Assembly (NCBI GenBank): GCA_012728115.1
Contig: JAAYFS010000054.1
Span: forward strand, 1-59,457
Direction: 5' to 3'
Origin: Bacillota bacterium
GTDB lineage: Bacteria; Bacillota; Limnochordia; Darwinibacteriales; JAAYFS01
Length of the DNA stretch: 59,457 bases
Shown: piece by piece, positions 7,708-27,901 of the stretch
Numbering within the stretch: position 1 is the first letter of the stretch
Layout: every line of letters starts with the position of its first letter
The notes under the pieces: model-generated
What the model saw: only the letters and a program-made list of their open reading frames with translations
What the model was told of the DNA's origin: nothing
Databases searched by the model: none
Translations under genes and position numbers: made by a program

Positions 7708-8427
7708 CTATATAGAAAATTGATCCCCTAAATAAAATTTTCTTGCTAATTCGTTTTGAGCTATTGAAGTAGCACTTCCAGAAACTAAGATCCTTCCTTC
7801 ATGCATAATATAAGCTCTGTCAGTAATCTTAAGCGTTTCCCTTACATTATGATCCGTTATCAATATCCCTAAGTTTCGTTGCTTTAGTTCAGCAACGATC
7901 GCTTGCACTTCAGCGACTGCTATCGGATCCACCCCAGCAAAGGGCTCGTCCAGCAAGAGAAAGCCAGGATTTAAAGCAAGTGCGCGGGCAATCTCGGTTC
8001 GTCGTCTTTCGCCACCTGAAAGTTGGTATCCTAGCCGCTTCCTCACATCTTGTAGTTTAAAATCCGAAAGCAACTGTTCTAACCGGTCTTTCTCCTCTTT
8101 CTTATTTAGCTTAAGTAACTGAAGGATCGCTAAAAGATTCTGCTCCACAGTTAAATGACGAAAAACTGAAGGCTCTTGTGGTAGGAAATTCACACCTAAC
8201 CGAGCCCGTTTATATATTGGCAAATGAGTAATATCTTTATCATCGACGATGATCGTTCCTTGATCGGCTCTCTCCAGCCCCACGATTATTGAAAAGGTGG
8301 TAGTTTTACCAGCACCATTTGGCCCCAATAAACCTACGATCTCGCCTCGAGCCATCTCCAGATCAATATGATCGACAACCACCTTTTCTTTATATGCCTT
8401 TACTATGTTACTGCACTTAATGCTCAT
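7708..8427 (-). CDS. lptB: LPS export ABC ATPase LptB
   Basis: 239 aa, standard length. Walker A GPNGAGKT at residues 35 to 42; the LptB-type Q-loop FLPQEPSVFRHLTV at 81 to 94; signature LSGGERRR at 136 to 143; Walker B FLLLDEP. The ERRR form of the signature and the FLPQ segment are typical of LptB rather than of LivF/G. LptB drives the LptF/G permease that pulls LPS from the inner membrane into the LptC-LptA-LptD bridge; its partners are encoded at 13217-17580. Eleven bases follow lpxB. Confidence 0.95.
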   Translation of the reverse strand: MSIKCSNIVKAYKEKVVVDHIDLEMARGEIVGLLGPNGAGKTTTFSIIVGLERADQGTIIVDDKDITHLPIYKRARLGVNFLPQEPSVFRHLTVEQNLLAILQLLKLNKKEEKDRLEQLLSDFKLQDVRKRLGYQLSGGERRRTEIARALALNPGFLLLDEPFAGVDPIAVAEVQAIVAELKQRNLGILITDHNVRETLKITDRAYIMHEGRILVSGSATSIAQNELARKFYLGDQFSI

Positions 8428-8437
8428 ATAGATTGCC

Positions 8438-9574
8438 TCACTTTTGTAAAATATCGAGGATCATATCAGCTGTCCGTGCTAATGAACCTGGCTCACCTAG
8501 TTCATCCCTGAGTTTATCAAATTGACTAAGCATACTCTTTCTCTTTTCAGAGGAATTCAATAAATCAATCACCATTTCAGCCAAAAGTCTTTCATTGAAA
8601 TCATTTTGCACTAATTCAGGTACGATTTTTTGCTGCATTATCGCATTAGGTAAAGATGAATATCCCTTGCGCCCTAAGCGTTTTGCTGATAAAAATGATA
8701 CCATTAACGGTTTATCAACTGCGATGAATGGAATTCTATATAAAGCCGCCTCCAACGAAGCAGTACCACAAGTTACAACCGCTAAATCCGCAACATTTAA
8801 AGCATCATATGTTTTTTCAATTACCTGAATATCCAAGTTACTCTTCGATATCGATTTTTGTATCAAATCAAGTTCTTGACTACTTAATGCTCCAGCAACC
8901 ACTATCTTAATTTCAGGATTTTCCTTCGCCACTAACTCCATACCCTTGATCATCACTGGTAGACGTACCCTGACATCAACCTCGCGCGAACCAGGTAATA
9001 AAGCTACCACTGTATCATCCTCTGTTAGTTCAAATCCTTTTCTAACCGTAATCTTATCTAGTGGTTTAGGTAAAACATCCAAGATCGGATGACCTACGAA
9101 TTCAACGTCAATACTCACTTTTTCTAATAGTTCTACCTCGTTCTTAGTAACACCAGCTACTTTACGAACAAATGAGGCGAGTTCCTCTAACTTTATTCTA
9201 GTATCTCCCCAGCTAAATGGAGTATAATAATATACTACAGGTATGTCCTTACATTGAGCTAACTCAAGTAGTTTTAGATTAAAACTAGGTAAACCAACTT
9301 GCACCACAATATCGGGTCGTTGATAATCCATCTCCTGACTTACTCTGCTTAATAACCTTTTAGTTATATGACCACCTTTGAAATTGTCAAAAACGCCGAG
9401 ACTGTCCAGCTCTGTTACGTTATAAATTAAGTCTACGCCTGCAGCCTCCATTCTTGATCCACCGATACCTCTGATCACGGCATCTGGTGCCTTTCCTTTG
9501 AGATGATTTGTCAGCGCAGCACCGAACCTTTCACCAGTACTTTCACAGCCAACAATCAAAATCTTCGGATCCAT
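8438..9574 (-). CDS. lpxB: lipid-A-disaccharide synthase LpxB
   Basis: 378 aa, family length (GT19). Conserved pieces: RGIGGSRMEAAGVDLIYN near residue 35 to 52, the ALLPGSREVDVRVRLPVM segment near 190 to 208, and the UDP-sugar binding CGTASLEAALYRIPFI near 270 to 285. It condenses UDP-diacyl-glucosamine with lipid X to give the lipid A disaccharide, at the cytoplasmic face of the inner membrane. Its ATG overlaps the fabZ stop (TAATG), so the two are translationally coupled. No lpxA, lpxC, lpxD or lpxK lies in this window. Confidence 0.95.
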   Translation of the reverse strand: MDPKILIVGCESTGERFGAALTNHLKGKAPDAVIRGIGGSRMEAAGVDLIYNVTELDSLGVFDNFKGGHITKRLLSRVSQEMDYQRPDIVVQVGLPSFNLKLLELAQCKDIPVVYYYTPFSWGDTRIKLEELASFVRKVAGVTKNEVELLEKVSIDVEFVGHPILDVLPKPLDKITVRKGFELTEDDTVVALLPGSREVDVRVRLPVMIKGMELVAKENPEIKIVVAGALSSQELDLIQKSISKSNLDIQVIEKTYDALNVADLAVVTCGTASLEAALYRIPFIAVDKPLMVSFLSAKRLGRKGYSSLPNAIMQQKIVPELVQNDFNERLLAEMVIDLLNSSEKRKSMLSQFDKLRDELGEPGSLARTADMILDILQK

Positions 9575-10008
9575 TAAAAAGCTTCTCCTCTCTCAGCAAG
9601 CGCAAATGTTAGTTCCGCACTAGCCACTAATTCCCCATTAACTTCAGCATTTGCATTCGCCTTGGCAACATTACGCCTGAAAGAAGTGATCTCCACAGTT
9701 ATCTTCAACTGATCTCCAGGTACAACCATCTTACGAAACCTTACTTTGTTCAATGATGCGAGTAAAGGAATCCCTCTTCCATCATGACCTCCCGCAGCTA
9801 AACCGCCAGTCTGTGCCATCGCTTCAACAATCAGCACTCCAGGCATAATGGGGTAATCAGGGTAATGTCCTTGGAAAAAGGGTTCGTTAATCGAAACATT
9901 TTTTAAAGCTACCGCTCGTTTTCTTTCTTCAAGTTCGATAACTCTATCGATCAATAAAAAAGGATAGCGATGCGGTATCCGTTTCTTGATCTCTTCTACC
10001 GTTAACAC
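9574..10008 (-). CDS. fabZ: 3-hydroxyacyl-ACP dehydratase FabZ
   Basis: A GTG at 10008 preceded by GGGAG gives 144 aa, the family length; the frame stays open upstream but that stretch is not FabZ-like. Hot-dog fold with PHRYPFLLIDRV at 12 to 23 and the catalytic pair His48 (FFQGHYPDYPIMPG) and Glu62 (VLIVEAMAQ). It dehydrates 3-hydroxyacyl-ACP in fatty-acid synthesis and competes with LpxA/LpxD for the same substrate, which explains its usual place beside lpx genes. In Bacillus subtilis fabZ directly follows the flagellar flhO-flhP genes; here the outer-membrane block lies between them. Confidence 0.93.
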   Translation of the reverse strand: MLTVEEIKKRIPHRYPFLLIDRVIELEERKRAVALKNVSINEPFFQGHYPDYPIMPGVLIVEAMAQTGGLAAGGHDGRGIPLLASLNKVRFRKMVVPGDQLKITVEITSFRRNVAKANANAEVNGELVASAELTFALAERGEAF

Positions 10009-10028
10009 AAAATCACTCCCGACCCACA

Positions 10029-10046
10029 TTGACAGCCAATTGTCAA
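10029..10046. promoter_or_regulatory. inverted repeat just upstream of fabZ (possible operator)
   Basis: TTGACA, six bases, TGTCAA: a perfect 6+6 inverted repeat about 21 bases before the fabZ start codon. It does not match the FapR operator I know. It could be an operator or a chance -35-like sequence. Confidence 0.3.
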
Positions 10047-10065
10047 ACATCATTAGATAAATCTT

Positions 10066-10094
10066 TGCACCACTCTCCAAAGAAGAGTGGTGCA
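10066..10094 (-). promoter_or_regulatory. strong hairpin in the fabZ leader
   Basis: A perfect 11-bp stem (TGCACCACTCT / AGAGTGGTGCA) with a 7-base loop, 58 bases before the fabZ start. It is not followed by a T-run on either strand, so it is not a simple terminator. It may cap or regulate the fabZ-lpxB-lptB message, or protect the 3' end of the upstream ABC operon. Confidence 0.5.
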
Positions 10095-10190
10095 TAATTC
10101 TATCATACCCAGATTAAGATCAATACCTTCACACAGCTAATTTTCTTCGAAATATGCAAAAATCCTTCTTTAATTAATCGATGTTAGTTC

Positions 10191-10919
10191 TTAACTGGCT
10201 ATTAAACGTTGATATTTAATCCCGATTTCTGATTGTGGGTTTCCGAAAACCTCTGCTGGTGTTCCAGCTTCAACAATTTTTCCTTTATCCATCAGTAGGA
10301 TTCGGTCTGCTACCTTTGAAGCGAAAGATACTTCGTGGGTAACAATTACCATTGTAGTCTTAGTTGTTTGAACCAACTCTTCCATGACATCCAGAACTTC
10401 TCGAACAAGTATTGGATCTAGAGAGGCGGTAGGCTCATCCCAAAGCATTAGTTCAGGATTACCTACTAGTGCTCTAGCAATTCCAACTCTTTGTTGCTGA
10501 CCGCCACTTAAATTACCTGGGCGTTTGTTCCATTCGTTTGCCAAACCTACCTTAGCTAAGGCAAGTTGTGCTCTGGCGGTAGCTTCTTGCCGATCCAAGC
10601 CAGCTAGTACAAGATGAAACATCACATTATCTAATACCGATAAGCGAGCGATCAAATTAAAGTGTTGAAATACATATCCAACTTTACGCCTAAATTTAAG
10701 CAATTCTTTATCGCTTAGTTCTAAAATATTTTTTCCTTCAACAATGATTTCCCCTGTATCAGGCTCTGTTAAACGATTGATACATCTGATTGTGGTTGAC
10801 TTTCCACAACCACTCGGACCCATTATTACAACAGTCTCACCACGTGAGATTTTCATATCTACGCCATCTACCGCTTTGAGCTTCCCATAACTCTTGGAAA
10901 GGTTTTTTATTTCGAGCAC
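10191..10919 (-). CDS. ABC transporter ATPase, GlnQ/HisP-like, partner of the permease at 10934
   Basis: 242 aa from a GTG at 10919 with GAGGAGGG 5 to 6 bases upstream (an overlapping ATG in another frame stops at once). Walker A GPSGCGKS at 34 to 41, Q-loop YVFQHFNL at 82 to 89, signature LSGGQQQR at 137 to 144, Walker B LMLWDEP at 157 to 163, switch His in VTHEVSFA. By sequence it belongs with polar-amino-acid importer ATPases, but no binding protein or importer permease is near. It is 14 bases downstream of the large permease and almost certainly powers it. Substrate unknown. Confidence 0.85.
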   Translation of the reverse strand: MLEIKNLSKSYGKLKAVDGVDMKISRGETVVIMGPSGCGKSTTIRCINRLTEPDTGEIIVEGKNILELSDKELLKFRRKVGYVFQHFNLIARLSVLDNVMFHLVLAGLDRQEATARAQLALAKVGLANEWNKRPGNLSGGQQQRVGIARALVGNPELMLWDEPTASLDPILVREVLDVMEELVQTTKTTMVIVTHEVSFASKVADRILLMDKGKIVEAGTPAEVFGNPQSEIGIKYQRLIAS

Positions 10920-10933
10920 ATTCGCCCTCCTCT

Positions 10934-13051
10934 CTAGAACTGTTGTTTCCAGCGATTTAGTAAATTCATTAATCCAGGACGACTTGCAGGAATCACTATT
11001 TCCCTCATAATTTGAACGTTTGATAGTCCTAATGCTTGTCCAGCCATAATTTCATTGCGATCCACCGGGCTGAACTTTTCAGCCATCACTACTACAATAA
11101 ATCCAATCATCAGACCTAAGATTATTACTACTGGAATCGATACATATGGGATCTCGGCGCCACTTAAGATATATACAAGAGTGAGAATTACCGAACCAAC
11201 TATCGCACCGAAGATCCAAGTAAAGATTTTTCTTCTATTGCCTAAAACCCACTTGAGGGTGCTAAAGATTGTTGCATGATCCAAGATTAAAATTCCGATT
11301 GTAAAAATCACAGCCATTATTCCAGCGATAGTAGCTCGAATCTCTTGAAGTAATCTTAAAATCTCGGAACGAGCATCTGGATTAACCATACCTGCAGAAA
11401 CCGAATAGGTATTTACATAAGGATTATCTAACCCTTCTCTAATAATCGGTTCCATCACCTTTTCATCAAGCGGTTCACCTTCAACCAGAATTTGAACTCG
11501 CTCGCCAGGGATCACTTGACCAGCTAGATAGGTGTTAATCAGACGAATCGACTTACCTATATCTTCATCTTCCATTTGTGGTAAGCTATCGCGTAAATGT
11601 TCAATTTGATAAATTATTGCTTGAACATCGATTTCTTGCACATTTGCAATCTGGTCGGCGATGTTTACTAAACTACTGCGCATCGCTTCGATATCAAGGT
11701 TTTCCAAAGTTTCAATCGGGGTTTCAGTTTGTTCTTCATTAGCAGCAGCTAGATTCTTAAATAATCCGTTTAATAAGAGTGAAATAATCAATTGTTCCCC
11801 AACTGATTGAGCGTTACCTTGGGTTATTCCTTCGTTAAGCTTCCTCATTTGAATCTGTAAAAGATCCAACTGAATCAGAGCTTCTTGAAATACATCGAGA
11901 ATAGCTTCTGCATTATCTACTGCCAAATGAGCCTCATGAGCTAACTCATCGAGTTCATGGAGAAGTTTTAGACTTTCGTTTATGGTATATTCTAATTTAT
12001 ATCGTTCGTTTTCTAGTTCAACACTACCTACTCTTTCTGTGATAAGTCCATCAGAGCGTAAGCGATAAATATCCTGCTTAATCGTATCTTGAGCTGCCGC
12101 GATCGAACCTTCTATAATGATACCCTCTGCATTTTGACCTTCAACGGCCAAGACTTCTATAACTAAATGATCTTGAGCAGATTCTTCTCCAACCACTATC
12201 TTCGCATCACTTAGACCCTGAACCACTAACCTCTCACCAACTATCAAATGAATATTAGGGTCAGCTTGAATTCTAACTTTTGAAGCGTAGCTTAATAAGA
12301 AATTTCTCATCTCGACAAGAGCCGTTAAAAATGCATCTAAATCATCACCATGCTCTAGTGAAGTTACGTTTTTCAGTAGCTTTGGACCAAATTCGTTTTC
12401 GATAATATCGATTACTTCCTCGCCAGTTAATTGGGTATCAACTTCAAATCCGATCGGGAATCGAAGTTCCAAAATCTGATACTCATCAAGTATTTGATTT
12501 ACTTGTTCGGTAACATCGCGAGAGTACTGCATATCTTCCAACACTACTAACATATTTACTCCATCTTTAAAAGCAAATCTCACACCCGTAATGGCTTCAA
12601 TTCGTTCAGTTAATTCAGTTCTTACACTAGAATGAACACCACGAATCAAAATACTCGGTTCGATAATTACGGTATAACCATTTATACCTGGTATTCCATT
12701 AAAGATCGCGGGTAAGGATTCCATAACTTCTCGAGTTCTAAACTCTTCAGGAAACCCGAAAAAGAAGTTTGCTTGGCCAGCGATCGTGATCGTTTGATCC
12801 ACCTTTGCCCCAGGATATTGTTCAGCTGCGATTCTTTTTAATTCTCGTTCCGCTGCTTCCCTGGCTTCTTCTCTGATATGCAAAATGATGTCAAATTCTC
12901 CGTATTCACCGATCATGCCATCGATTGTATCTCCAAAATAAGAGTCAACCGCCCAGGCAACTCCCGAAGAAAAGATAGCACCAATAATTACAGTAACTAA
13001 CATAAGTACTGTAAAGTCCTTGAAAAAACCGTCGCGAAAAAACCCGAGCAT
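10934..13051 (-). CDS. large ABC permease with extracytoplasmic domain and EAA-like motif
   Basis: Start ATG at 13051, preceded by AAGGAGGG at ideal spacing; 705 aa. One membrane segment at about 13 to 35, an extracytoplasmic region of some 535 residues with coiled-coil stretches (about 360 to 420), then three membrane segments at about 573-595, 608-630 and 634-657. This TM1-large domain-TM2-4 layout is that of MacB/FtsX proteins. After the last segment comes a cytoplasmic tail with a good match to the EAA coupling motif of type I importers (residues 667 to 695: EIMAGQALGLSNVQIMREIV, then IPASRPG). I do not recognise a named family. The location between lptA and fabZ suggests lipid or lipoprotein traffic across the periplasm; that is inference. 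Confidence 0.75.
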   Translation of the reverse strand: MLGFFRDGFFKDFTVLMLVTVIIGAIFSSGVAWAVDSYFGDTIDGMIGEYGEFDIILHIREEAREAAERELKRIAAEQYPGAKVDQTITIAGQANFFFGFPEEFRTREVMESLPAIFNGIPGINGYTVIIEPSILIRGVHSSVRTELTERIEAITGVRFAFKDGVNMLVVLEDMQYSRDVTEQVNQILDEYQILELRFPIGFEVDTQLTGEEVIDIIENEFGPKLLKNVTSLEHGDDLDAFLTALVEMRNFLLSYASKVRIQADPNIHLIVGERLVVQGLSDAKIVVGEESAQDHLVIEVLAVEGQNAEGIIIEGSIAAAQDTIKQDIYRLRSDGLITERVGSVELENERYKLEYTINESLKLLHELDELAHEAHLAVDNAEAILDVFQEALIQLDLLQIQMRKLNEGITQGNAQSVGEQLIISLLLNGLFKNLAAANEEQTETPIETLENLDIEAMRSSLVNIADQIANVQEIDVQAIIYQIEHLRDSLPQMEDEDIGKSIRLINTYLAGQVIPGERVQILVEGEPLDEKVMEPIIREGLDNPYVNTYSVSAGMVNPDARSEILRLLQEIRATIAGIMAVIFTIGILILDHATIFSTLKWVLGNRRKIFTWIFGAIVGSVILTLVYILSGAEIPYVSIPVVIILGLMIGFIVVVMAEKFSPVDRNEIMAGQALGLSNVQIMREIVIPASRPGLMNLLNRWKQQF

Positions 13052-13116
13052 CGATCTGCCCTCCTTACCCAAAGATCTAATAAAAGCGTATCTTGCTTAG
13101 CTTATACTGCTTTATA

Positions 13117-13145
13117 ATTATATCACACGGGTAAGGAGGACTTAA
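13117..13145 (-). promoter_or_regulatory. promoter of the permease-ATPase pair
   Basis: Extended -10 TGATATAAT (TATAAT at 13117-13122) with a weak -35 TTAAGT (13140-13145) at 17 bases. It lies about 66 bases before the permease ATG and after the lptA stop, so the pair can be transcribed apart from the lpt genes. Confidence 0.55.
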
Positions 13146-13216: not shown

Positions 13217-13777
13217 TCAATTAAACTCAGCGATAAATGGTCCAATAAACTCGATTAGTTCTTTTTCAATATAGAATGATAGTTTTTCACCTTTAAAAAC
13301 ACCGTTTTCAAATTCTACAACTACGTTATTGCTAAAAATAGCGTGTTTCTCTTGCTGGTAATAAAGCATTTCGTCAGAATATACTGTTCCGTCCTCGGTA
13401 GTCGCAACCACATTGCCACGAGCGGTAAACCTTTCTTCTTCAATAAAGTATTCGATTTGGTCTGTGGTTAGTTCCATATCCTTCTGAATCAGTGTTATGC
13501 CACCCAGCATCTGTAAATGTTCTTCTTGGGTGTCCCAGATTACAACCTTACCAGTAATAGTGATATCTTCAAATTCGATCAGTACATAAGCTCCTTCAAT
13601 TTCGCTCAGATCAACTGAAAAAACTCCGCTTTTCGTTTCATAACGTCCAGCAGCAAAGTCACTAGGAACTCCGACTAAAACTAACTTGCCTTTATCTGCA
13701 AGTACCCCTACACTTAAACCAAAAAATATCGTAATTACCATAACCAATACCCAAAATGTTCGAAAACGCTTCTGCAT
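13217..13777 (-). CDS. lptA: LptA-like periplasmic LPS transport protein (OstA domain)
   Basis: The ATG at 13777 (MQKRFRTFW) is 4 bases after the lptC stop and has AGGCGGTGA as ribosome site; 186 aa. Signal peptide ends near GVLA. The body is made of short beta repeats of the OstA/LptA jelly-roll type, e.g. MELTTDQIEYFIEEERFTARG and VYSDEMLYYQQEKHAIF. LptA polymerises into the periplasmic bridge carrying LPS from LptC to LptD. Encoded directly with lptC and lptD. Confidence 0.85.
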   Translation of the reverse strand: MQKRFRTFWVLVMVITIFFGLSVGVLADKGKLVLVGVPSDFAAGRYETKSGVFSVDLSEIEGAYVLIEFEDITITGKVVIWDTQEEHLQMLGGITLIQKDMELTTDQIEYFIEEERFTARGNVVATTEDGTVYSDEMLYYQQEKHAIFSNNVVVEFENGVFKGEKLSFYIEKELIEFIGPFIAEFN

Positions 13778-13781
13778 ATCG

Positions 13782-14420
13782 TCACCGCCTCTCAAAGTTT
13801 ATCGTTATCCCACCGAGAATCTGTAGTATTTCACTATCAAATTCATATACAAAGTGATCAAGAACCCAGGTGAATTTGTCGTTCTTAATTGCCACATTTC
13901 CGATCACATGGGCGATCTCTTTGTTGATATCAATAAATACACGATCGGCTACTATATCGGAATCATCGACTGTCATAGTAAAGCGATTTGGTATTTCGAT
14001 TTCCTCCCGATTTCCGTTCCAGATCAGCTGATCCGTGATTAACGAAAATTCGTTATTATCGGTTATTACGATTTCACCGACTAATACTAAGACCCCAGTA
14101 TCACGATTCCATTCTCCCGATTCTGCTGTAAGGAAATAAAATGGCTCTTCATCACGCATAATGGTCACTTTTTCAATTCCATCGATATAAACCATTTCTC
14201 CTTTTTGTGTTATCGTTTCACTGATTATTTCCCACTGCCTCTTTCCTTGATGTCTTCCAATCAATTGTGGATTTGTTATACGAACACCAGGATCGACTTC
14301 CCTTTGCTCATTAATCTCAATGATATTTTGTTTTTGATTATTGATAAACCAAACTGTTGTCATCACTGATACTATTAAGACAATAATCAGCAGGTTTTTT
14401 GCTTTAAACAAGGTGTCCAC
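13782..14420 (-). CDS. lptC: LPS export protein LptC
   Basis: 212 aa from a GTG at 14420; a TTG at 14411 has better spacing to GAGGTGG and may be the true start. An N-terminal membrane anchor (about 6 to 24: KNLLIIVLIVSVMTTVWFI) precedes an LptC/OstA-type beta domain with repeats such as YIDGIEKVTIMRDEEPFYFL and SLITDQLIWNGNREEIEIP. LptC hands LPS from LptBFG to LptA. Seven bases separate it from lptD and four from lptA, so the three form one translational unit. Confidence 0.85.
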   Translation of the reverse strand: MDTLFKAKNLLIIVLIVSVMTTVWFINNQKQNIIEINEQREVDPGVRITNPQLIGRHQGKRQWEIISETITQKGEMVYIDGIEKVTIMRDEEPFYFLTAESGEWNRDTGVLVLVGEIVITDNNEFSLITDQLIWNGNREEIEIPNRFTMTVDDSDIVADRVFIDINKEIAHVIGNVAIKNDKFTWVLDHFVYEFDSEILQILGGITINFERR

Positions 14421-14427
14421 CTCTGTT

Positions 14428-16464
14428 CTAGATAACGCCCATTAGATCTTGGAGCCCTTCAAAATCGAAAAGCAATCCTTGATCAGTTCCACCCAGACGA
14501 ATCGGCATGGTTGGGAAGGCTTTGATCCGGTATTGGAACCATACCTGACGCTTTACTTGATCATAGCTAAGAGTGATATCACGACAATGTAGTTCTTTAG
14601 TAAGCGAAAAGCGTCCCTCTGTGAAAGTATCCAAACGCGGCCGATAGATCGCTGTGTAGCTGATGGATACAGTATCCGTTAGATTAAACTGTAGTTTGGC
14701 ATCTATTCTATCCCAGGCATGAACACTAAACAAGTAATTTCCGCCTAGCTTAAGTTCGGTACTACGGTTAGGATTATAGCCGATAACCGCTACACCACTT
14801 ACTGGAGTCCGATTGTTGATATTATAGGTCAAATTTCCTTGCAAGCTCCAGCCTTTAGGAGTATTTATCCTTACTTGAGTGACTAAGTTTTGAAACCGAT
14901 CAGTGATAAAATCATACCCAGAATACATTGTCAATGATACATTATTATGGCGATATAAGATCTGGCCCGTCACGCTGCTTATAGGCTGTTGTTTATCAAA
15001 ACGAAACGGTGTTGCACCCCAAACATCACGACGAGAATAGTTTACTGATGCTTGAAGTTGAGTTGTAAAACGCTGGCTTATACCAACTCGATAGAATGAT
15101 GCCGCTTGGAACAGGCTTTCCTCATAAGCGAACGCTTGGAGATTTCCGCTATAACTTACACTTGTTGTAGAGGTTGGTCGCCACACTCTCGATGAAAGTT
15201 CAAGCAAACTGTACATTCTTTTACTTTCAACTCGCGACGGAAACTCCCGATAGTTTCCAACACTTACTTGCATTCGCCCAGAAAAATTCATTGGATTCCG
15301 CCACTGCCATGAAATTTCGGGAATTCGGTTAACACTTGTCCAATTCGGCACTACATCTTCCTCAAAAATATCTGGATTATATCTTTGCTGAATGGAACCT
15401 GTTAACGTATGATCGCCTTGTGCATAACTAAGCTCCGCCAGATAATTAACCATCCTTCGGCGAATGTTATAGTCTTTGTGCTGAATCTGACCATCCAAAA
15501 CCAATCGCAAATTTTCGGTTAAATTTTGACGCCAATCGGCTTTTAAGTTCCACGCTTCGCCATTTTTGCTCCCTTCGTCTGCCTCATACTGTGCATCAAC
15601 ACGAAATGTTAGTTCATCAGTATTATAACGAGAATTGAAAGCTAAATCCGTACGCATTTCCACTCCATATTCTCGGAGACGGCGATGATAGAAACCATCA
15701 AATAGCAAGGAAAAGTTACCGATCTCATAGCGGTGTTCTAAGCTACTTTGGAAGAGATTGATATCATCCCTTGGAACAGTATAAAGATAGATACTTCCTT
15801 CGCCCGCTATTGAATACTGGTGCCTAATTCCAACTCCTGGGCCCATTAAAGTATAATAATCAGCAAGAATTGTGCCATGAGCTGAAGGGTTGAAAAAGTA
15901 ATTAAAAGAGTTCTTTATATACCATCCTTCTTCTGCCCCAAACCCGATTTCGGGTAAAGAGAAACCTCGATCGGAATGTTCTCCTATAGGAATCACTATA
16001 TAGGGCCAATAAAATATCGGTATCTGCCCTTCATAGTATACTAATCCTCTAATAACCAATTTATCATCTGGATATAGTTCGATTCGATTTGTCAATAGAT
16101 GGTAATGTGGGATATCTCGATCACAACTCGTGATCTTGCCTTCTTCGATAAAATAAGCTTCATCAGAAACAATTATCTGATCACCATAGAAAAAAATCGG
16201 TCCTTCAACATTGTCAAATACTAACGTTGCCTTGGCTGAATCCTTGATTACGATCTGCTCCTTGTCAAGGTCCATAATCAACGATTCAGCGGTGATAACC
16301 GTTTCATCGATTGTAATTTCTACTCCACCTTCGATCATAAATAACTGGTTCTTAAAGTCCCAAGTTCCACCCTGAACACCTTTAATCACGACTTCTGCCA
16401 TAGCTACAGCAGAAAAAGTATTTATGATAATGACCAACATAAGCAAGCTCAGAATCTTCTTCAT
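14428..16464 (-). CDS. lptD: LPS assembly outer-membrane protein LptD
   Basis: 678 aa with a signal peptide (ends VAMA). Residues about 22 to 130 form an OstA/LptA-like domain (DETVITAESLIMDLDKEQIV, YGDQIIVSDEAYFIEEG). The segment YYEGQIPIFYWPYIVIPIGE near residue 150 is the conserved start of the LptD family barrel, followed by SLPEIGF. The rest is a large beta-barrel ending in CRDITLSYDQVKRQVWFQYR. It inserts LPS into the outer leaflet. It is somewhat shorter than proteobacterial LptD, and no lptE is visible. Confidence 0.92.
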   Translation of the reverse strand: MKKILSLLMLVIIINTFSAVAMAEVVIKGVQGGTWDFKNQLFMIEGGVEITIDETVITAESLIMDLDKEQIVIKDSAKATLVFDNVEGPIFFYGDQIIVSDEAYFIEEGKITSCDRDIPHYHLLTNRIELYPDDKLVIRGLVYYEGQIPIFYWPYIVIPIGEHSDRGFSLPEIGFGAEEGWYIKNSFNYFFNPSAHGTILADYYTLMGPGVGIRHQYSIAGEGSIYLYTVPRDDINLFQSSLEHRYEIGNFSLLFDGFYHRRLREYGVEMRTDLAFNSRYNTDELTFRVDAQYEADEGSKNGEAWNLKADWRQNLTENLRLVLDGQIQHKDYNIRRRMVNYLAELSYAQGDHTLTGSIQQRYNPDIFEEDVVPNWTSVNRIPEISWQWRNPMNFSGRMQVSVGNYREFPSRVESKRMYSLLELSSRVWRPTSTTSVSYSGNLQAFAYEESLFQAASFYRVGISQRFTTQLQASVNYSRRDVWGATPFRFDKQQPISSVTGQILYRHNNVSLTMYSGYDFITDRFQNLVTQVRINTPKGWSLQGNLTYNINNRTPVSGVAVIGYNPNRSTELKLGGNYLFSVHAWDRIDAKLQFNLTDTVSISYTAIYRPRLDTFTEGRFSLTKELHCRDITLSYDQVKRQVWFQYRIKAFPTMPIRLGGTDQGLLFDFEGLQDLMGVI

Positions 16465-16494: not shown

Positions 16495-17580
16495 CTATCT
16501 AAGCCGATCAGCATTGAAAATCAAAGCTAATCCTGAAATTCCAAAAAGCGCATTCGGAAACCAGGCAGCAACCAATGGTTCAAACACACCATTAACTCCT
16601 AGTGAACGACACACGGGCGTAATAACATAGTATAAAAAAATGATAACGATACTAACCGCGATTCCGTAAGAACTACCACCTTTACCCTTTAAGACTAAAG
16701 GGGCGCCGAAAAACGCAAATATCAGTGAAGCTGCTGGCAACGTGAGCTTCATATGATAATCAACCTCGAATGAGCGGACATTTAACCCACCGCGCCTAAA
16801 ACGCTCGATGTGCTCACGTAACTCCCGACGGTTCATTTCATCAGTGGTGCGTTGGTTACCAAAGTAAAGTTCAGCATTTTCTTCGGTCACTATCTCCAGA
16901 GTTTCAAACCTTGTTTCGAAATTAACAAATCCCTCTTCGTCCATCTCCTGAATGATCCCATCACGTAAAATCCACACTTTATCGTGGAAGACTCCGCCTT
17001 TTGCTGTGATTAACCTAGGAAACGGACCAGATTGTTCGAGTTCATAAATCATTACATTTTTCAATTCATTGTACCTGGTAACTTCTTGGATATAGAAAAA
17101 GCGACCTTCTCCCCCATGAAAGAAAACATTTTCCTGAACAACAGGAATACCGTCTTCAAAAATCAACTTCCGGACAATATTTTCGAATTGATGATTTGCC
17201 CAAGGAACAACCCTCTCATTGGCTTGATAGGTCACCACACTTACTACAAAAGCAATAATTAAAATGGGGACTATTATGCGGCGAAAAGGCACACCGCTGC
17301 ACCTCATCACCGTTAACTCGCTTTGACTCTGCAATTTTCCTAAGGAAAGTAAAGTAGCAAACAACACTGCAATCGGAAGAGTCAAAACCACCATTTCGGG
17401 CAGTTTATATAAAAGCATTTTGCCCACTAATGAAATAGCGACATTTTTTACAAAAATAAAATCGGTTAATTCAAATAGAATTCCACTAAGAAGGATGATG
17501 GTAAAACCAAAAACACAAAAAAGGAAGGGATAAGTAAAACCCCTGATAATATAGCGATCAAGTAATGATATGGGTCTCAC
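16495..17580 (-). CDS. LptF/LptG family permease (single copy here)
   Basis: 361 aa, GTG start at 17580. The N-terminus LLDRYIIRGFTYPFLFC and the following LPEMVVLTLPIAVLFATL and SELTVMRCSGVPF are diagnostic of YjgP/YjgQ permeases. Six membrane segments: three N-terminal, then a periplasmic beta-jellyroll (about 120 to 260), then three C-terminal (from about residue 275). With LptB it extracts LPS from the inner membrane. Enterobacteria use an LptF-LptG heterodimer; only one gene is present here, so a homodimer or a second gene elsewhere is implied. Confidence 0.9.
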   Translation of the reverse strand: MRPISLLDRYIIRGFTYPFLFCVFGFTIILLSGILFELTDFIFVKNVAISLVGKMLLYKLPEMVVLTLPIAVLFATLLSLGKLQSQSELTVMRCSGVPFRRIIVPILIIAFVVSVVTYQANERVVPWANHQFENIVRKLIFEDGIPVVQENVFFHGGEGRFFYIQEVTRYNELKNVMIYELEQSGPFPRLITAKGGVFHDKVWILRDGIIQEMDEEGFVNFETRFETLEIVTEENAELYFGNQRTTDEMNRRELREHIERFRRGGLNVRSFEVDYHMKLTLPAASLIFAFFGAPLVLKGKGGSSYGIAVSIVIIFLYYVITPVCRSLGVNGVFEPLVAAWFPNALFGISGLALIFNADRLR

Positions 17581-17612: not shown

Positions 17613-18428
17613 CTAAAACCCAGTCCCGATAGCAATCACTGGCCTGATACCATTGATACCATCATTAATCCTACCATAGATTGCCAGATCAAATCGCCAG
17701 TTTGCTAACGAGTAGCCAACTCCAGCTGAAAGGACGTCATCATTTTCAAAAGTCCTTCTCCAGCCTGCTCGCAAGGCCAGATTTTCTAGCGGAGTTATTT
17801 CCGCACCGATACTCCAATCACTATTCTTGTCGTGGTTTAATAAATTTCTTACCTCAACACTTAATATAGCATAATTTGCTAAATCAATGGTAGTACCTAT
17901 TTTAACTTCGGTATTCAAATCTCGTTCTCCATCTCCCAAAGGCTTATACAAAACATTCTCCGCCATTGCTCCAATGCAAAGTGGTCCAAATTGGAGTAAC
18001 AGACCTAAATCAGATGTAAAATACCTCTTGTTGTTATACACCAGGTACTTGGTATTTACACCAGCTGCAAATGAAGGAGTAAAGGACTTTGCAATACTGT
18101 ACGAGACGATATTATAAGAATTCCCAACAACCGTCTTATAACGAATCCAGTTAAGAGCTCCTGCACCATTTCCATAATCGGGTTCAGCGTAGCTTAAATG
18201 AAAATTAAAGGGGTTTAAGGAATTCATATCAAGCTGGAACCTACGTTCATTTAAATTAACTAATCCCGCTGGATTCCAGTCTGGAGCTGTTGAATCATCT
18301 GCTAGAGCGACATAGGATCCGCCAAGTGCTACTGCCCGAGCACTCAACTCGCTTGCGGAAACCGCAACAACGCTTCCCAATACAATACAGACAAGTACGA
18401 GAACTGAGAATACCGTAAGTTTTTTCAT
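17613..18428 (-). CDS. PorV/FadL-like outer-membrane beta-barrel protein
   Basis: 271 aa with a good GGAGGAG ribosome site. Signal peptide ends near VSAS. The mature N-terminus ARAVALGGSYVALADDSTA followed by PDWNPAGL is the typical entry motif of PorV/PorQ and UPF0164 barrels of the FadL superfamily. The C-terminus ends in alternating hydrophobics and Phe (VIAIGTGF), as outer-membrane barrels do. The role in this cluster is unknown; it lies directly upstream of the LptF/G gene. Confidence 0.75.
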   Translation of the reverse strand: MKKLTVFSVLVLVCIVLGSVVAVSASELSARAVALGGSYVALADDSTAPDWNPAGLVNLNERRFQLDMNSLNPFNFHLSYAEPDYGNGAGALNWIRYKTVVGNSYNIVSYSIAKSFTPSFAAGVNTKYLVYNNKRYFTSDLGLLLQFGPLCIGAMAENVLYKPLGDGERDLNTEVKIGTTIDLANYAILSVEVRNLLNHDKNSDWSIGAEITPLENLALRAGWRRTFENDDVLSAGVGYSLANWRFDLAIYGRINDGINGIRPVIAIGTGF

Positions 18429-18461
18429 TCTTACTCCTCCTCAACGGAAAGTGTAAAAAAA

Positions 18462-19109
18462 CTAAAATCGTGCGGTATAGCTTAAACCAAAGCCTAAATC
18501 TTTCATTTTGGAGACAAAGACCTTACCACTAAAATCACTATTAAACCTAAACGATAAGCCAGTATTAAGCCCTGAACCATCATATTCAGCGATTAAAGTA
18601 GTTACTGGAACTTTCAATGATTTATTTACTGATGAAATTGTTACTGGGTTAAGTACTGCGCTAATGCCTAGAACGCCATGGCGATATTTCCCTGTTCCTA
18701 TTCCAATATGTCCACGCACTCCAGCTGCGCCTATTTGTTTGCTGAGCACTCCGTAGTACATAGGAGTACCCATGTATGTTTCTAATCCTACTGCGAATGC
18801 AGGCACGGTACTAGTCTCCTGTAATAGTTTCACCTTCAAATTCCCATTCAACGGTTCTCCCGTTCTTAACCGAGAGGAAACTCCTACCTCAACTCCGTTA
18901 AAGACACCCATTGTTAAAGCAATTGTTCCACTACCTTTGAAATGATGATACGAAACAATCAAATTGCTTTCTGCCAATGTTCCCGCAGTCGGGATATTTA
19001 TAAGCCCTGTGGAACCATTAATGGACGCTAGGGCTGGTTGAACAAATGGTTGTACAAACAAAACCAGAGCAACAATTACCAAAATTCCAACAAATTTCCT
19101 TTTTTGCAT
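18462..19109 (-). CDS. YjbH-like outer-membrane protein
   Basis: 215 aa with a signal peptide (ends near PALA). The mature start SINGSTGLINIPTAGTLAES is the conserved opening of YjbH-type and related barrels (G-L-x-x-x-P-T-A). The remainder alternates as beta-strands and ends in FGLSYTARF with a C-terminal Phe. YjbH proteins are tied to exopolysaccharide secretion. It is much shorter than enterobacterial YjbH, so only a single-barrel relative is claimed. Confidence 0.65.
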   Translation of the reverse strand: MQKRKFVGILVIVALVLFVQPFVQPALASINGSTGLINIPTAGTLAESNLIVSYHHFKGSGTIALTMGVFNGVEVGVSSRLRTGEPLNGNLKVKLLQETSTVPAFAVGLETYMGTPMYYGVLSKQIGAAGVRGHIGIGTGKYRHGVLGISAVLNPVTISSVNKSLKVPVTTLIAEYDGSGLNTGLSFRFNSDFSGKVFVSKMKDLGFGLSYTARF

Positions 19110-26020: not shown

Positions 26021-27901
26021 TTAGTAGGTTATGATCTCTAAATCAAAAGTCGCCAAACCTTCGATTACATAAGGTGTTCTCTTCCGTACGCGGATATAAT
26101 TTGTGTCATCGCTTTCCCATGTATTACCTCTCTCTGATTGTTCCTCTTCCACAGCAAGCATGGAAAACTGTTGTTCTTCTATTTCGGGGGTTTCTGGAAT
26201 GGTATTATGATCGAGTTCCATTTCCATCACGCCATTTTCTGTCTCTGCAAAGTAACCATCGTAATCATCGAAAAATGGGTAAAATTCAGCTACCAACTCG
26301 TTATAGCGTTCTCCGTTCATATATTCCTCTAGTAGTTTATCTAAGTTCTCGGCAGAACTCGGTGCTTCCCACACAATTTCTTCTTCACTCGACAGAAATT
26401 CCAATGAAGTGTGTACGCTAGGTTTTGAATAATAATAGCCATACCCACCACCGCGAACAGTAACAGTTAACATACCTGGTGCAGTCTCGGGAGGTATCAT
26501 TATTTGTAGCCTTAATGTTTCCACTTCTTGGCGATGTGGCCTTATAGTTACTTCTACATCCACGACATCACCTGGTGCCACTTGGTATTTTTGTGGGATA
26601 GCGCGCTCAACTACCGCAGTTCTTCGTTCATTTTCAACGCTAACAATAATATTAATTTGGGTTAAATCCACTTCTTGAAAACGATTGGTTAACAAAAGAT
26701 CTAGTCCTTGTTCGAGATCAAGCAACGCCCAAACAGCAATATCTGATTCACTAAAGAACATATTATCCCGAATAATGGTGTTGGACAAATTGCTTGCTAC
26801 AAACTCAACAGTTACTTCCGCTGTACCGCGTCCAATTCGATCAAGTGTTGCATCTATGCCTTGAAAGGCACTACTGATCGCTAACGCATGAATATATGCC
26901 TCATCCTTCACCGCTTCAACTTTGTATTCAAGCACCAGTTCTCGATCTTTATCCTCTACCGAAATAAAAATCGGAACATAGCTAGGACCATTATTTAATT
27001 TTCCTGCAACACCAGCTGCTCGATCTTGATATAACGTTCCGATATTTGGCCCTGAAGAAGCAACCTTGATCGGAAACTCTACATGTGCCAGTGTATAATG
27101 AACCACTGCTGGGGTAACAAAGAACTCAACATCTCCTCGATGGGTGAATGGATGGCCAAAACCAACGAACTCATTATCCTTTATATACGTGATCGTTCCA
27201 AAAGCAGTTGCCTGAAAATCGCCACGTAAAAGCTGTACCCCAAAAGCACTTCCTGGTTCTAACTCAATACCTTCGTCTAAAAAACTAGTGCTGCTTCCAG
27301 TCAACCCTTGGATCAAACGAAAATCATATTGGGATAATTCTTTTTCTAAATACTTAAAAGATCTTCCAGAGATTCCACCGATCATTAATGGTGTATTTAG
27401 CGGTATAAAAGAATCTTCACTTGGAATATTCTCTTTTTCTAAAGGAATAAAGTGTTCACTACTCCGAGTTTCGATTTGCCATTCCTGCTCAATAGGTTCT
27501 GGATCTTTTTCAAGAACATCCAAAAGCTTCAACATCTCTTCAGCAGGTGTAACCAAACCAATTCGGTGATCTGTATAACTATAGCCGTAACCTATCGCCC
27601 CAAGCAGTTTTCCATCGATGTATACTGGACTTCCACTCATTCCGCTGGCAATGCCACCAGATTTATCGATTGGATCACCACTTACACGAACCATTATCAG
27701 ATTTGGTGTGGGCGGGCTTTGAGGGATCACTCCGATCACTTCCACTACAAATTCCTCAACTGTCGTTCCTTGCACAACAGTTTTCCCAACACCAATTAAC
27801 CCAGGTTTGACCTCGCTTAATGGAAATATCTCTATTGCCTGAGCTGAAACCGAGAGAAAGGTTAGACAAAAAAGGATTACCAGGCATTTGACTTTTTTCA
27901 T
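26021..27901 (-). CDS. S55 (SpoIVB-type) peptidase-domain protein with swapped modules
   Basis: 626 aa, signal peptide ends near AQA, ribosome site AAGGAG. The S55 serine motif GGIASGMSGSPVYIDGKLLG holds the likely nucleophile Ser91. The likely catalytic His is in FVGFGHPF (His250), after AFGTITYIKDNE. In SpoIVB the His module comes first and the Ser module last, so here the order is reversed. The C-terminal part (from about 400) is a beta-rich region without known motifs, ending with acidic, low-complexity sequence. Not SpoIVB itself; probably an envelope serine protease or an inactive relative. It sits between the NAGPA protein and tamB. Confidence 0.75.
   Translation of the reverse strand: MKKVKCLVILFCLTFLSVSAQAIEIFPLSEVKPGLIGVGKTVVQGTTVEEFVVEVIGVIPQSPPTPNLIMVRVSGDPIDKSGGIASGMSGSPVYIDGKLLGAIGYGYSYTDHRIGLVTPAEEMLKLLDVLEKDPEPIEQEWQIETRSSEHFIPLEKENIPSEDSFIPLNTPLMIGGISGRSFKYLEKELSQYDFRLIQGLTGSSTSFLDEGIELEPGSAFGVQLLRGDFQATAFGTITYIKDNEFVGFGHPFTHRGDVEFFVTPAVVHYTLAHVEFPIKVASSGPNIGTLYQDRAAGVAGKLNNGPSYVPIFISVEDKDRELVLEYKVEAVKDEAYIHALAISSAFQGIDATLDRIGRGTAEVTVEFVASNLSNTIIRDNMFFSESDIAVWALLDLEQGLDLLLTNRFQEVDLTQINIIVSVENERRTAVVERAIPQKYQVAPGDVVDVEVTIRPHRQEVETLRLQIMIPPETAPGMLTVTVRGGGYGYYYSKPSVHTSLEFLSSEEEIVWEAPSSAENLDKLLEEYMNGERYNELVAEFYPFFDDYDGYFAETENGVMEMELDHNTIPETPEIEEQQFSMLAVEEEQSERGNTWESDDTNYIRVRKRTPYVIEGLATFDLEIITY

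Follow-up and report, generated by a model that had tools for sequence, protein, structure and literature searches.

The window (the whole stretch of DNA analysed, 59,457 nucleotides of contig JAAYFS010000054.1 from a Bacillota bacterium of the class Limnochordia, assembly GCA_012728115.1) carries, within its outer-membrane locus, adjacent genes for a permease and an ATPase that form an apparently undescribed ATP-binding cassette (ABC) pair. The permease ends in an EAA-type motif, and its predicted topology is that of the MacB and FtsX permeases. On balance, we slightly favor the view that the pair is a mechanotransmission-like ABC machine with type I coupling, which would move a lipid independent of lipid A beside the Lpt system.

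The permease starts at an ATG at 13051, preceded by AAGGAGG, which we read as a ribosome-binding site; an alternative in-frame TTG at 13072 would give a protein of 712 amino acids. The ATPase has a GTG start, which is also preceded by an apparent ribosome-binding site, and is separated from the permease by 14 bases (10920-10933). An earlier model-made reading of the bare sequence (the sequence-only reading) had described a 705-residue permease and an ATPase 14 bases on, between an lptA-like gene and fabZ, and the coordinates and translations of the open reading frames (ORFs), together with the flanking genes, agree with this. The permease had no Pfam or NCBIfam match above cut-off. The two genes and the parts of the permease, most of them predicted, are as follows (TM, transmembrane helix).

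10934-13051, minus strand: permease, 705 amino acids, with TM1, a large extracytoplasmic arm, TM2-TM4, and a C-terminal EAA motif
12911-13045, minus strand: TM1, residues 3-47, from the model and hydropathy
12755-12889, minus strand: first beta-alpha-beta piece (residues 55-99) of a possible Porter-like fold that an insert would divide, from the model and fold matches
12011-12280, minus strand: beta-barrel-like domain, residues 258-347, from the model and fold matches, nearly absent from the shortest relatives
11525-12004, minus strand: long helices that we take for a hairpin (residues 350-509), from the model and fold matches
11381-11500, minus strand: second beta-alpha-beta piece, residues 518-557, ahead of TM2, from the model
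11072-11374, minus strand: TM2-TM4, residues 560-660, from the model and conservation, with D591 in TM2 present in 108/108 homologues
10961-11071, minus strand: EAA coupling segment, residues 661-697, the most conserved part, 37 residues long in 108/108 homologues
10191-10919, minus strand: ATPase (ABC_tran), 242 amino acids, in a clade beside polar-amino-acid-importer ATPases

The EAA-type motif, E667..A670..LG675..........P688..RP692G, is far beyond chance. In a set of 108 homologues, kept non-redundant at under 85% identity, P688 and P692 occur in 108/108, A670 and G675 in 106/108, and E667 in 96/108, and mean conservation peaks in this segment (0.65 vs. 0.40-0.55 in the other regions). The motif placed by the sequence-only reading at residues of about 667 to 695 is borne out, in a segment of constant length. 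In hhalign comparisons, the C-terminal module aligned with 15 permeases of the PAAT type at E 4.4e-8 (probability 95; reversed control 0.077), where the E-value is that of a single comparison and the permease set was picked after the nearest ATPases had been found beside such permeases. A first importer set (Opp/Dpp-like) reached E 2e-3, no better than LptF/G (2e-3); the reversed controls for these two and for the FtsX-type comparison were 0.04-0.48. At E <= 1, Pfam BPD_transp_1 matches 60 of the 87 modules, with 1e-5 as the best value, and is below the Pfam cut-off in the window protein. A PDB profile search of the module gave MetI, an amino-acid permease, and PotC at the top, all weak (E 0.07-0.17), while the best PDB sequence profiles overall were myoferlin (E 0.06, chance) and MetI (0.07). 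Judging from these profiles, the EAA segment is of type I importer stock.

The ATPase points the same way. In a tree, 34 sampled ATPases from outer-membrane loci formed one group (support 100/97) and joined their 16 nearest paralogues with support 98/90, and 12 FtsX-linked ATPases lay apart from them. Thirteen of these 16 paralogues sit in loci with a PAAT-type permease (six of these operons were inspected), and the closest paralogue in the window's own genome (48%) lies within an operon of substrate-binding protein, importer permease, and ATPase, into which a weak match to the permease of the pair also falls (E 0.24, chance level when taken alone). GlnQ is the best NCBIfam match of the window ATPase, below its cut-off, with FtsE and LolD scoring lower; both the tree and these scores place the protein outside the LolD/MacB/FtsE group and argue for ancestry on the importer side. 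The pair thus shares its EAA motif and the ancestry of its ATPase with polar amino acid type I importers, of which GlnPQ, ArtMQ, and HisMP are examples.

These two likenesses would also suit an ordinary nutrient importer that happens to sit in the locus. We reject this as extremely improbable, because it is contradicted by synteny and topology. Unlike the polar amino acid importers, the pair has a large outer domain, and no helix follows the EAA segment: after G693 the window permease has 12 residues left, no such helix was found in the 29 of 87 module-alignment rows inspected, and the longer C-terminal tails of some relatives look hydrophilic or run into the ATPase. Permease and ATPase form a single chain, permease first, in L047, L050, and L055, from three genomes of one family of the window's class. 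In line with the sequence-only reading, no substrate-binding protein gene was recognized beside the pair in the window or among the labelled neighbours of its relatives, where unlabelled ORFs stay unidentified and no genome-wide search was made. The near-confinement of the pair to outer-membrane genomes and to the envelope locus, described below, also speaks against such an importer.

Hydropathy of the window permease shows four segments, at 20-38, 580-598, 620-638, and 646-664 (712-residue numbering), and the predicted model has helices at 3-47, 560-603, 605-630, and 639-655/657-660. One N-terminal and three C-terminal spans had been proposed and stand, while the roughly 535 residues placed outside the membrane come to about 510 between TM1 and TM2 in the model. 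Crude hydropathy over the 108 homologues gave exactly four segments in 60, three in 21, five in 16, and other numbers in 11. In the predicted arm, a further alpha/beta stretch reaches residue 197, and residues 411-452 within the long helices have a predicted local distance difference test score (pLDDT) < 50. The barrel ranges from 1 to 193 residues among the homologues and the hairpin region (348-510) from 120 to 283. The isolated TM module was modelled with a pLDDT of 93.9; the TM2-TM3 linker of the window protein is one to four residues long in two models, with longer loops in relatives, and short helices (665-673 and 678-686) are predicted after TM4.

As to the bundle itself, the C-terminal module aligned by hhalign with FtsX-type permeases at E 3e-4 (probability 38, or 41 for the whole protein; reversed 0.04-0.07), over TM2-TM4 and the closing "SPV" stretch. 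The FtsX family PF02687 had no match in the window permease at E <= 1 and matched 2/87 modules at that threshold (best 0.32). In VIA-align, LolC and LolE matched the full model at Z 7.2-7.9, covering up to residues 1-673, and FtsX at Z 7.0 over 1-132, which might reflect a Porter-like domain split into the pieces 55-99 and 518-557. The isolated TM module matched LolCDE (Z 5.3/5.2/4.4) and HrtB (4.0) over TM2-4, fitting them at 4.0-4.5 A across about 100 residues, and MalF/PotC/MalG at Z 3.4-4.5 by way of their EAA helices, with type I permeases fitting at 5-7.5 A. Foldseek gave one match at E <= 0.001 for the full model (a Wzc structure with TM-scores of 0.07-0.08, which is meaningless) and none for the TM module. 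Kinship of the TM bundle with MacB/FtsX is therefore a conclusion of moderate strength, and the reading that best fits all fold and profile data is a bundle of type VII character to which a type I coupling helix transmits the drive; a bundle derived entirely from a type I (MetI-like) permease that lost its last helices is still to be reckoned with. The chimera of type I ATPase and EAA motif with MacB/FtsX-like topology, as first proposed from the sequence, thus holds up in tree, profile, and fold comparisons.

With the type VII systems (MacB, LolCDE, FtsEX, YbbAP) the pair shares one span, a large outer domain, and three spans, the LolC/LolE and FtsX fold matches, and the FtsX-type profile alignment over TM2-TM4; a split Porter-like fold, as tentatively predicted, would be a further likeness. 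It differs from them in an ATPase outside the FtsX-linked group, in the weak FtsX Pfam matches, in a coupling element at the C-terminus, and in an arm with a barrel and a long hairpin. According to PMC5985334, the C-terminus of MacB is a minor coupling helix and the major one lies between TM2 and TM3, and PMC8333309 names three coupling elements in LolCDE: the helix between TM2 and TM3, an elbow helix, and the C-terminal sequence. Type VII systems work periplasmically, including by pulling lipoproteins or hydrophobic compounds from the membrane (PMC12646458). A LolCDE-like release of outer-membrane lipoproteins would suit the whole-length fold matches to LolC and LolE, and PMC5007114 found no LolA/LolB in Negativicutes, some of which carry the pair. 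We nevertheless think it distinctly unlikely, given an ATPase outside the FtsX-linked (LolD-type) group and a separate Lol cluster in most Halanaerobiales (PMC5007114).

The pair is essentially confined to outer-membrane-bearing Bacillota. The permease was found in 67 of 72 genomes of the window's class (no match in G020, G021, G022, G054, and G056), and a profile of 63 members at E <= 1e-15 gave 78 carriers, counted by hand, among 398 genomes of the phylum; the matches inspected among 98 further genomes with weaker hits (E 1e-5 to 1e-3) span just profile positions 608-694. Omp85 was found in 101/398 genomes and in 77/78 carriers, and among the 297 genomes without an Omp85 match the sole carrier is G424, which has LpxC. 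Phyla other than Bacillota were covered by a pattern scan of named records, in which a tighter-alignment pattern gave 83 relatives in 297 stretches. Of these, 78 loci were listed, all with titles that name Bacillota or taxa which we take to belong there, including Sporomusa malonica, Anaerospora hongkongensis, Lucifera butyrica, Propionispora, Halonatronum saccharophilum, and metagenome-assembled genomes (MAGs) of Massilibacillus and Limnochordia. A single-sequence scan of named genomes gave 52 stretches and no relative. A viral source of the pair was rejected, as four pattern stretches held no relative. The pair reaches all three diderm Bacillota lineages named in PMC10665443.

Synteny is equally consistent. 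In 142/143 loci 8 kb or longer, one or more genes of the lpt, lpx, fabZ, or bamA type are present (70/70 in the genome set, which includes the window, and 72/73 in the named records), a sum of counts that are not independent, since the two sets come partly from the same genomes. The typical order is lptFG-lptD-lptC-lptA-permease-ATPase-lpxC-fabZ-lpxA-lpxI-lpxB, and a Sporomusa-like order is lpxD-(porin-like)-lpxL-permease-ATPase-lpxC. The labelled upstream neighbour is lptA-like for 62/107 permease ORFs (fragments included) and in 47/78 named loci, and a downstream ATPase was called for 86/107 and 65/78, the remaining cases being contig ends, fusions, fragments, L182, and misses by the script, which mislabels some neighbours where ORF starts overlap. 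Restriction to outer-membrane-bearing Bacillota and to the envelope locus is what the sequence-only reading had expected, and neither outcome that would speak against its reading was seen, as no fold or profile match puts the permease squarely into a known family with a known substrate and its homologues are not mainly in monoderm genomes or away from envelope genes.

The sole exception to the envelope synteny, L182 of Anaerospora hongkongensis, holds a second permease copy (7956-10319) with an intact EAA motif and no ATPase beside it. It lies directly downstream of genes for a TetR protein, an HlyD-type adaptor, and an AcrB-type RND transporter, and is a paralogue apparently joined to an efflux operon.

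A tripartite-type exporter, in which a built-in adaptor hairpin docks on a TolC-like duct, could be imagined from the match of the hairpin to EmrA (Z 7.5), from the OEP/TolC family proteins in 56/56 carriers searched, and from this second Anaerospora copy behind HlyD and AcrB-type genes. It seems to us very unlikely: TolC-type proteins are found in 23/24 non-carriers too and so have no power to discriminate, matches to coiled coils lack specificity (8.8 for a PI3K piece), and no TolC gene was recognized at the locus.

Seven of the 24 regions from Omp85-positive non-carriers were inspected for gene order. In L278, L280, L282, and L284, lpxC comes immediately after lpxL or lpxD, and lptB comes immediately after lptA in L283, where related carriers also have a further gene; L279 and L281 have other genes ahead of lpxC. 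From these direct junctions, the pair is therefore missing as a unit in five of the seven regions.

LptF/G, MCE, and TolC were searched in 80 genomes, namely 56 of the 78 carriers (hand-picked, about one per genus outside the window's class) and all 24 Omp85-positive non-carriers. LptF/G is present in 56/56 carriers, and an lpt-type gene lies in 108/143 loci of at least 8 kb (55 genome-set, 53 named-record). These figures, together with the type VII-like topology, would also accord with an FtsEX-like regulator, whose ATP-driven arm would carry no cargo and instead act as a switch on the Lpt bridge or on a periplasmic enzyme. We find such a regulator unlikely, since no hydrolase or dedicated periplasmic partner was recognized among labelled neighbours (unlabelled ORFs being unidentified), and the arm has a barrel and a hairpin in addition to the putative Porter-like fold. 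The pair resembles LptB2FG in its locus and as an inner-membrane ABC machine but has a different permease, and the window encodes its own LptB and LptF/G besides.

LpxC was found in 63/78 carriers. The 15 without a match comprise the window's genome and five relatives in its order, the remaining nine belonging to two further families. LpxC and LpxK were the lipid A genes searched. LpxK is absent in 15/15 of the LpxC-less carriers, which alone says little, because it is also absent in 9/17 LpxC-positive genomes searched. Because these 15 carriers have neither LpxC nor LpxK matches, it is improbable that every carrier has canonical lipid A as the cargo of the pair.

The window's own genome (G000) keeps LptA/C/D/FG/B-like proteins, an LpxB-like protein, and FabZ, with no LpxC or LpxK match; 14 other carriers likewise have neither match (their Lpt sets were partly checked). 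Genome G000 also has an MCE-domain match at C18:18928-19155, in a 742-residue frame directly preceded by an ABC ATPase (18069-18737), so that a Mla-like system coexists there with the new pair. In L081, L082, and L098-L100, from a family without LpxC matches, LptF/G is one long ORF of about 1,100 residues, which we guess is probably fused to LptD.

MCE was found in 11/56 carriers (absent in 45) vs. 13/24 non-carriers (Fisher p 0.003, uncorrected for kinship). With MlaFEDB/MCE the pair would share trans-envelope lipid traffic in diderms, while it has an unrelated-looking permease, lacks an MCE domain (PF02470 was absent from the permease and, among the best 25 of 29 families, from the ATPase), and is distributed in a partly complementary way. 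A retrograde importer, pulling phospholipid from the outer to the inner membrane as a non-homologous stand-in for MlaFED with the hairpin as a trans-envelope arm, is possible though doubtful: it would suit the importer-type ATPase and EAA element, the extended arm of the predicted model, and the MCE distribution, but pair and MCE system occur together in those 11 carriers, the family f77 genomes G150, G291, and G421 have neither, and ATPase ancestry does not determine direction.

A lipid independent of lipid A is the cargo that we prefer, because the pair is kept in genomes that have Lpt and lack LpxC and mostly occurs where there is no MCE/Mla, and because it lies beside Lpt and is nearly confined to outer-membrane genomes. 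In this machine, the two genes would give one inner-membrane complex, probably of two permeases and two ATPases. ATP binding would close the ATPase pair, and the C-terminal EAA helix, seated on the ATPase in the manner of type I importers, would take up the stroke for the permease. From there the stroke would pass through a four-helix bundle arranged like that of LolC/LolE/MacB/FtsX, and move the extracytoplasmic arm of split Porter-like base, optional barrel, and long helical hairpin, which may extend towards the outer membrane. By analogy, we infer that the arm is moved by ATP. The work would most likely be lipid movement between the inner and outer membranes beside the Lpt bridge, in either direction, with a phospholipid or another glycolipid as plausible cargo.

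Several results weigh against this proposal. The full permease model (pLDDT 77) has a predicted template modelling score of just 0.51, and the structural Z values are middling by VIA-align's own note: unrelated ACT-like domains (up to 9.3, on the first domain of the arm) and a PI3K helical piece (8.8) outrank LolC, and membrane pyrophosphatase (5.2 against the TM module) is level with LolCDE. The ATPase tree holds no Opp/Dpp-type ATPases, as none qualified. Since 24 Omp85-positive genomes lack the pair, an outer membrane can exist without it, and LptF/G and TolC are nearly as common in these non-carriers (22 and 23 of 24). The MCE association rests on two families that have MCE and no permease, and replacement of Mla is not strict, because 11/56 carriers have both systems and 11/24 non-carriers (some incomplete) have neither.

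In the window, the minus-strand order is TamB, BamA, OmpH-like genes, a YjbH-type protein, a PorV-like protein, LptF/G-, LptD-, LptC-, and LptA-like proteins, permease, ATPase, FabZ, an LpxB-like protein, LptB, a DUF3084 protein, and an SLH protein; lpxC, found between ATPase and fabZ in many relatives, is missing at that place. A 626-residue protein with a SpoIVB peptidase S55 domain is encoded inside the locus at 26021-27901. The nearest features are as follows.

16495-17580, minus strand: lptF/G-like permease
13217-16464, minus strand: lptA-like, lptC-like, and lptD-like genes, upstream
13117-13125, minus strand: extended -10 motif TGATATAAT, 65 bases ahead of the permease start codon
7708-10095, minus strand: downstream block of fabZ (9574-10095), lpxB-like (8438-9574), and lptB (7708-8427)

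The pair had been credited with its own extended -10 promoter. The motif TGATATAAT is indeed present, with 9 matches in the window vs. 3.0 expected, but the promoter scan did not list it at 13117-13125, and the 11 calls of that scan are below the yield from shuffled sequence (13.8), so that the motif is a candidate promoter element at most.

No such ABC pair was named in the titles and abstract beginnings covered by our literature search. PMC5007114 describes the outer-membrane locus with three uncharacterized genes, none of which is the pair, although its Figure 3 or supplement may draw it. PMC2626281 mentions an uncharacterized protein, confined to Firmicutes, that is encoded amid the lpxA-B-C order of Halothermothrix; we guess that this protein may be LpxI rather than the pair. 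According to PMC10665443, Halanaerobiales have no Mla and few Limnochordia have it, and undiscovered lipid-trafficking systems are proposed for Veillonella.

The wider question is how outer membranes without Mla, some of them without lipopolysaccharide, obtain and balance their lipids. A conserved ABC pair, central to the outer-membrane locus of deep Bacillota and absent as a whole from several lineages, offers a direct candidate. Tentatively, the pair might even be a distinct ABC class, in which a mechanotransmission-type permease acquired its ATPase and coupling helix from an amino-acid importer and, with a built-in trans-periplasmic arm, serves Mla-less diderm Bacillota as a carrier of a lipid independent of lipid A, possibly of phospholipid in the retrograde direction. 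As the pair suggests, permeases of one ABC architecture can be coupled through the EAA helix of another type, which bears on how ABC classes are defined.

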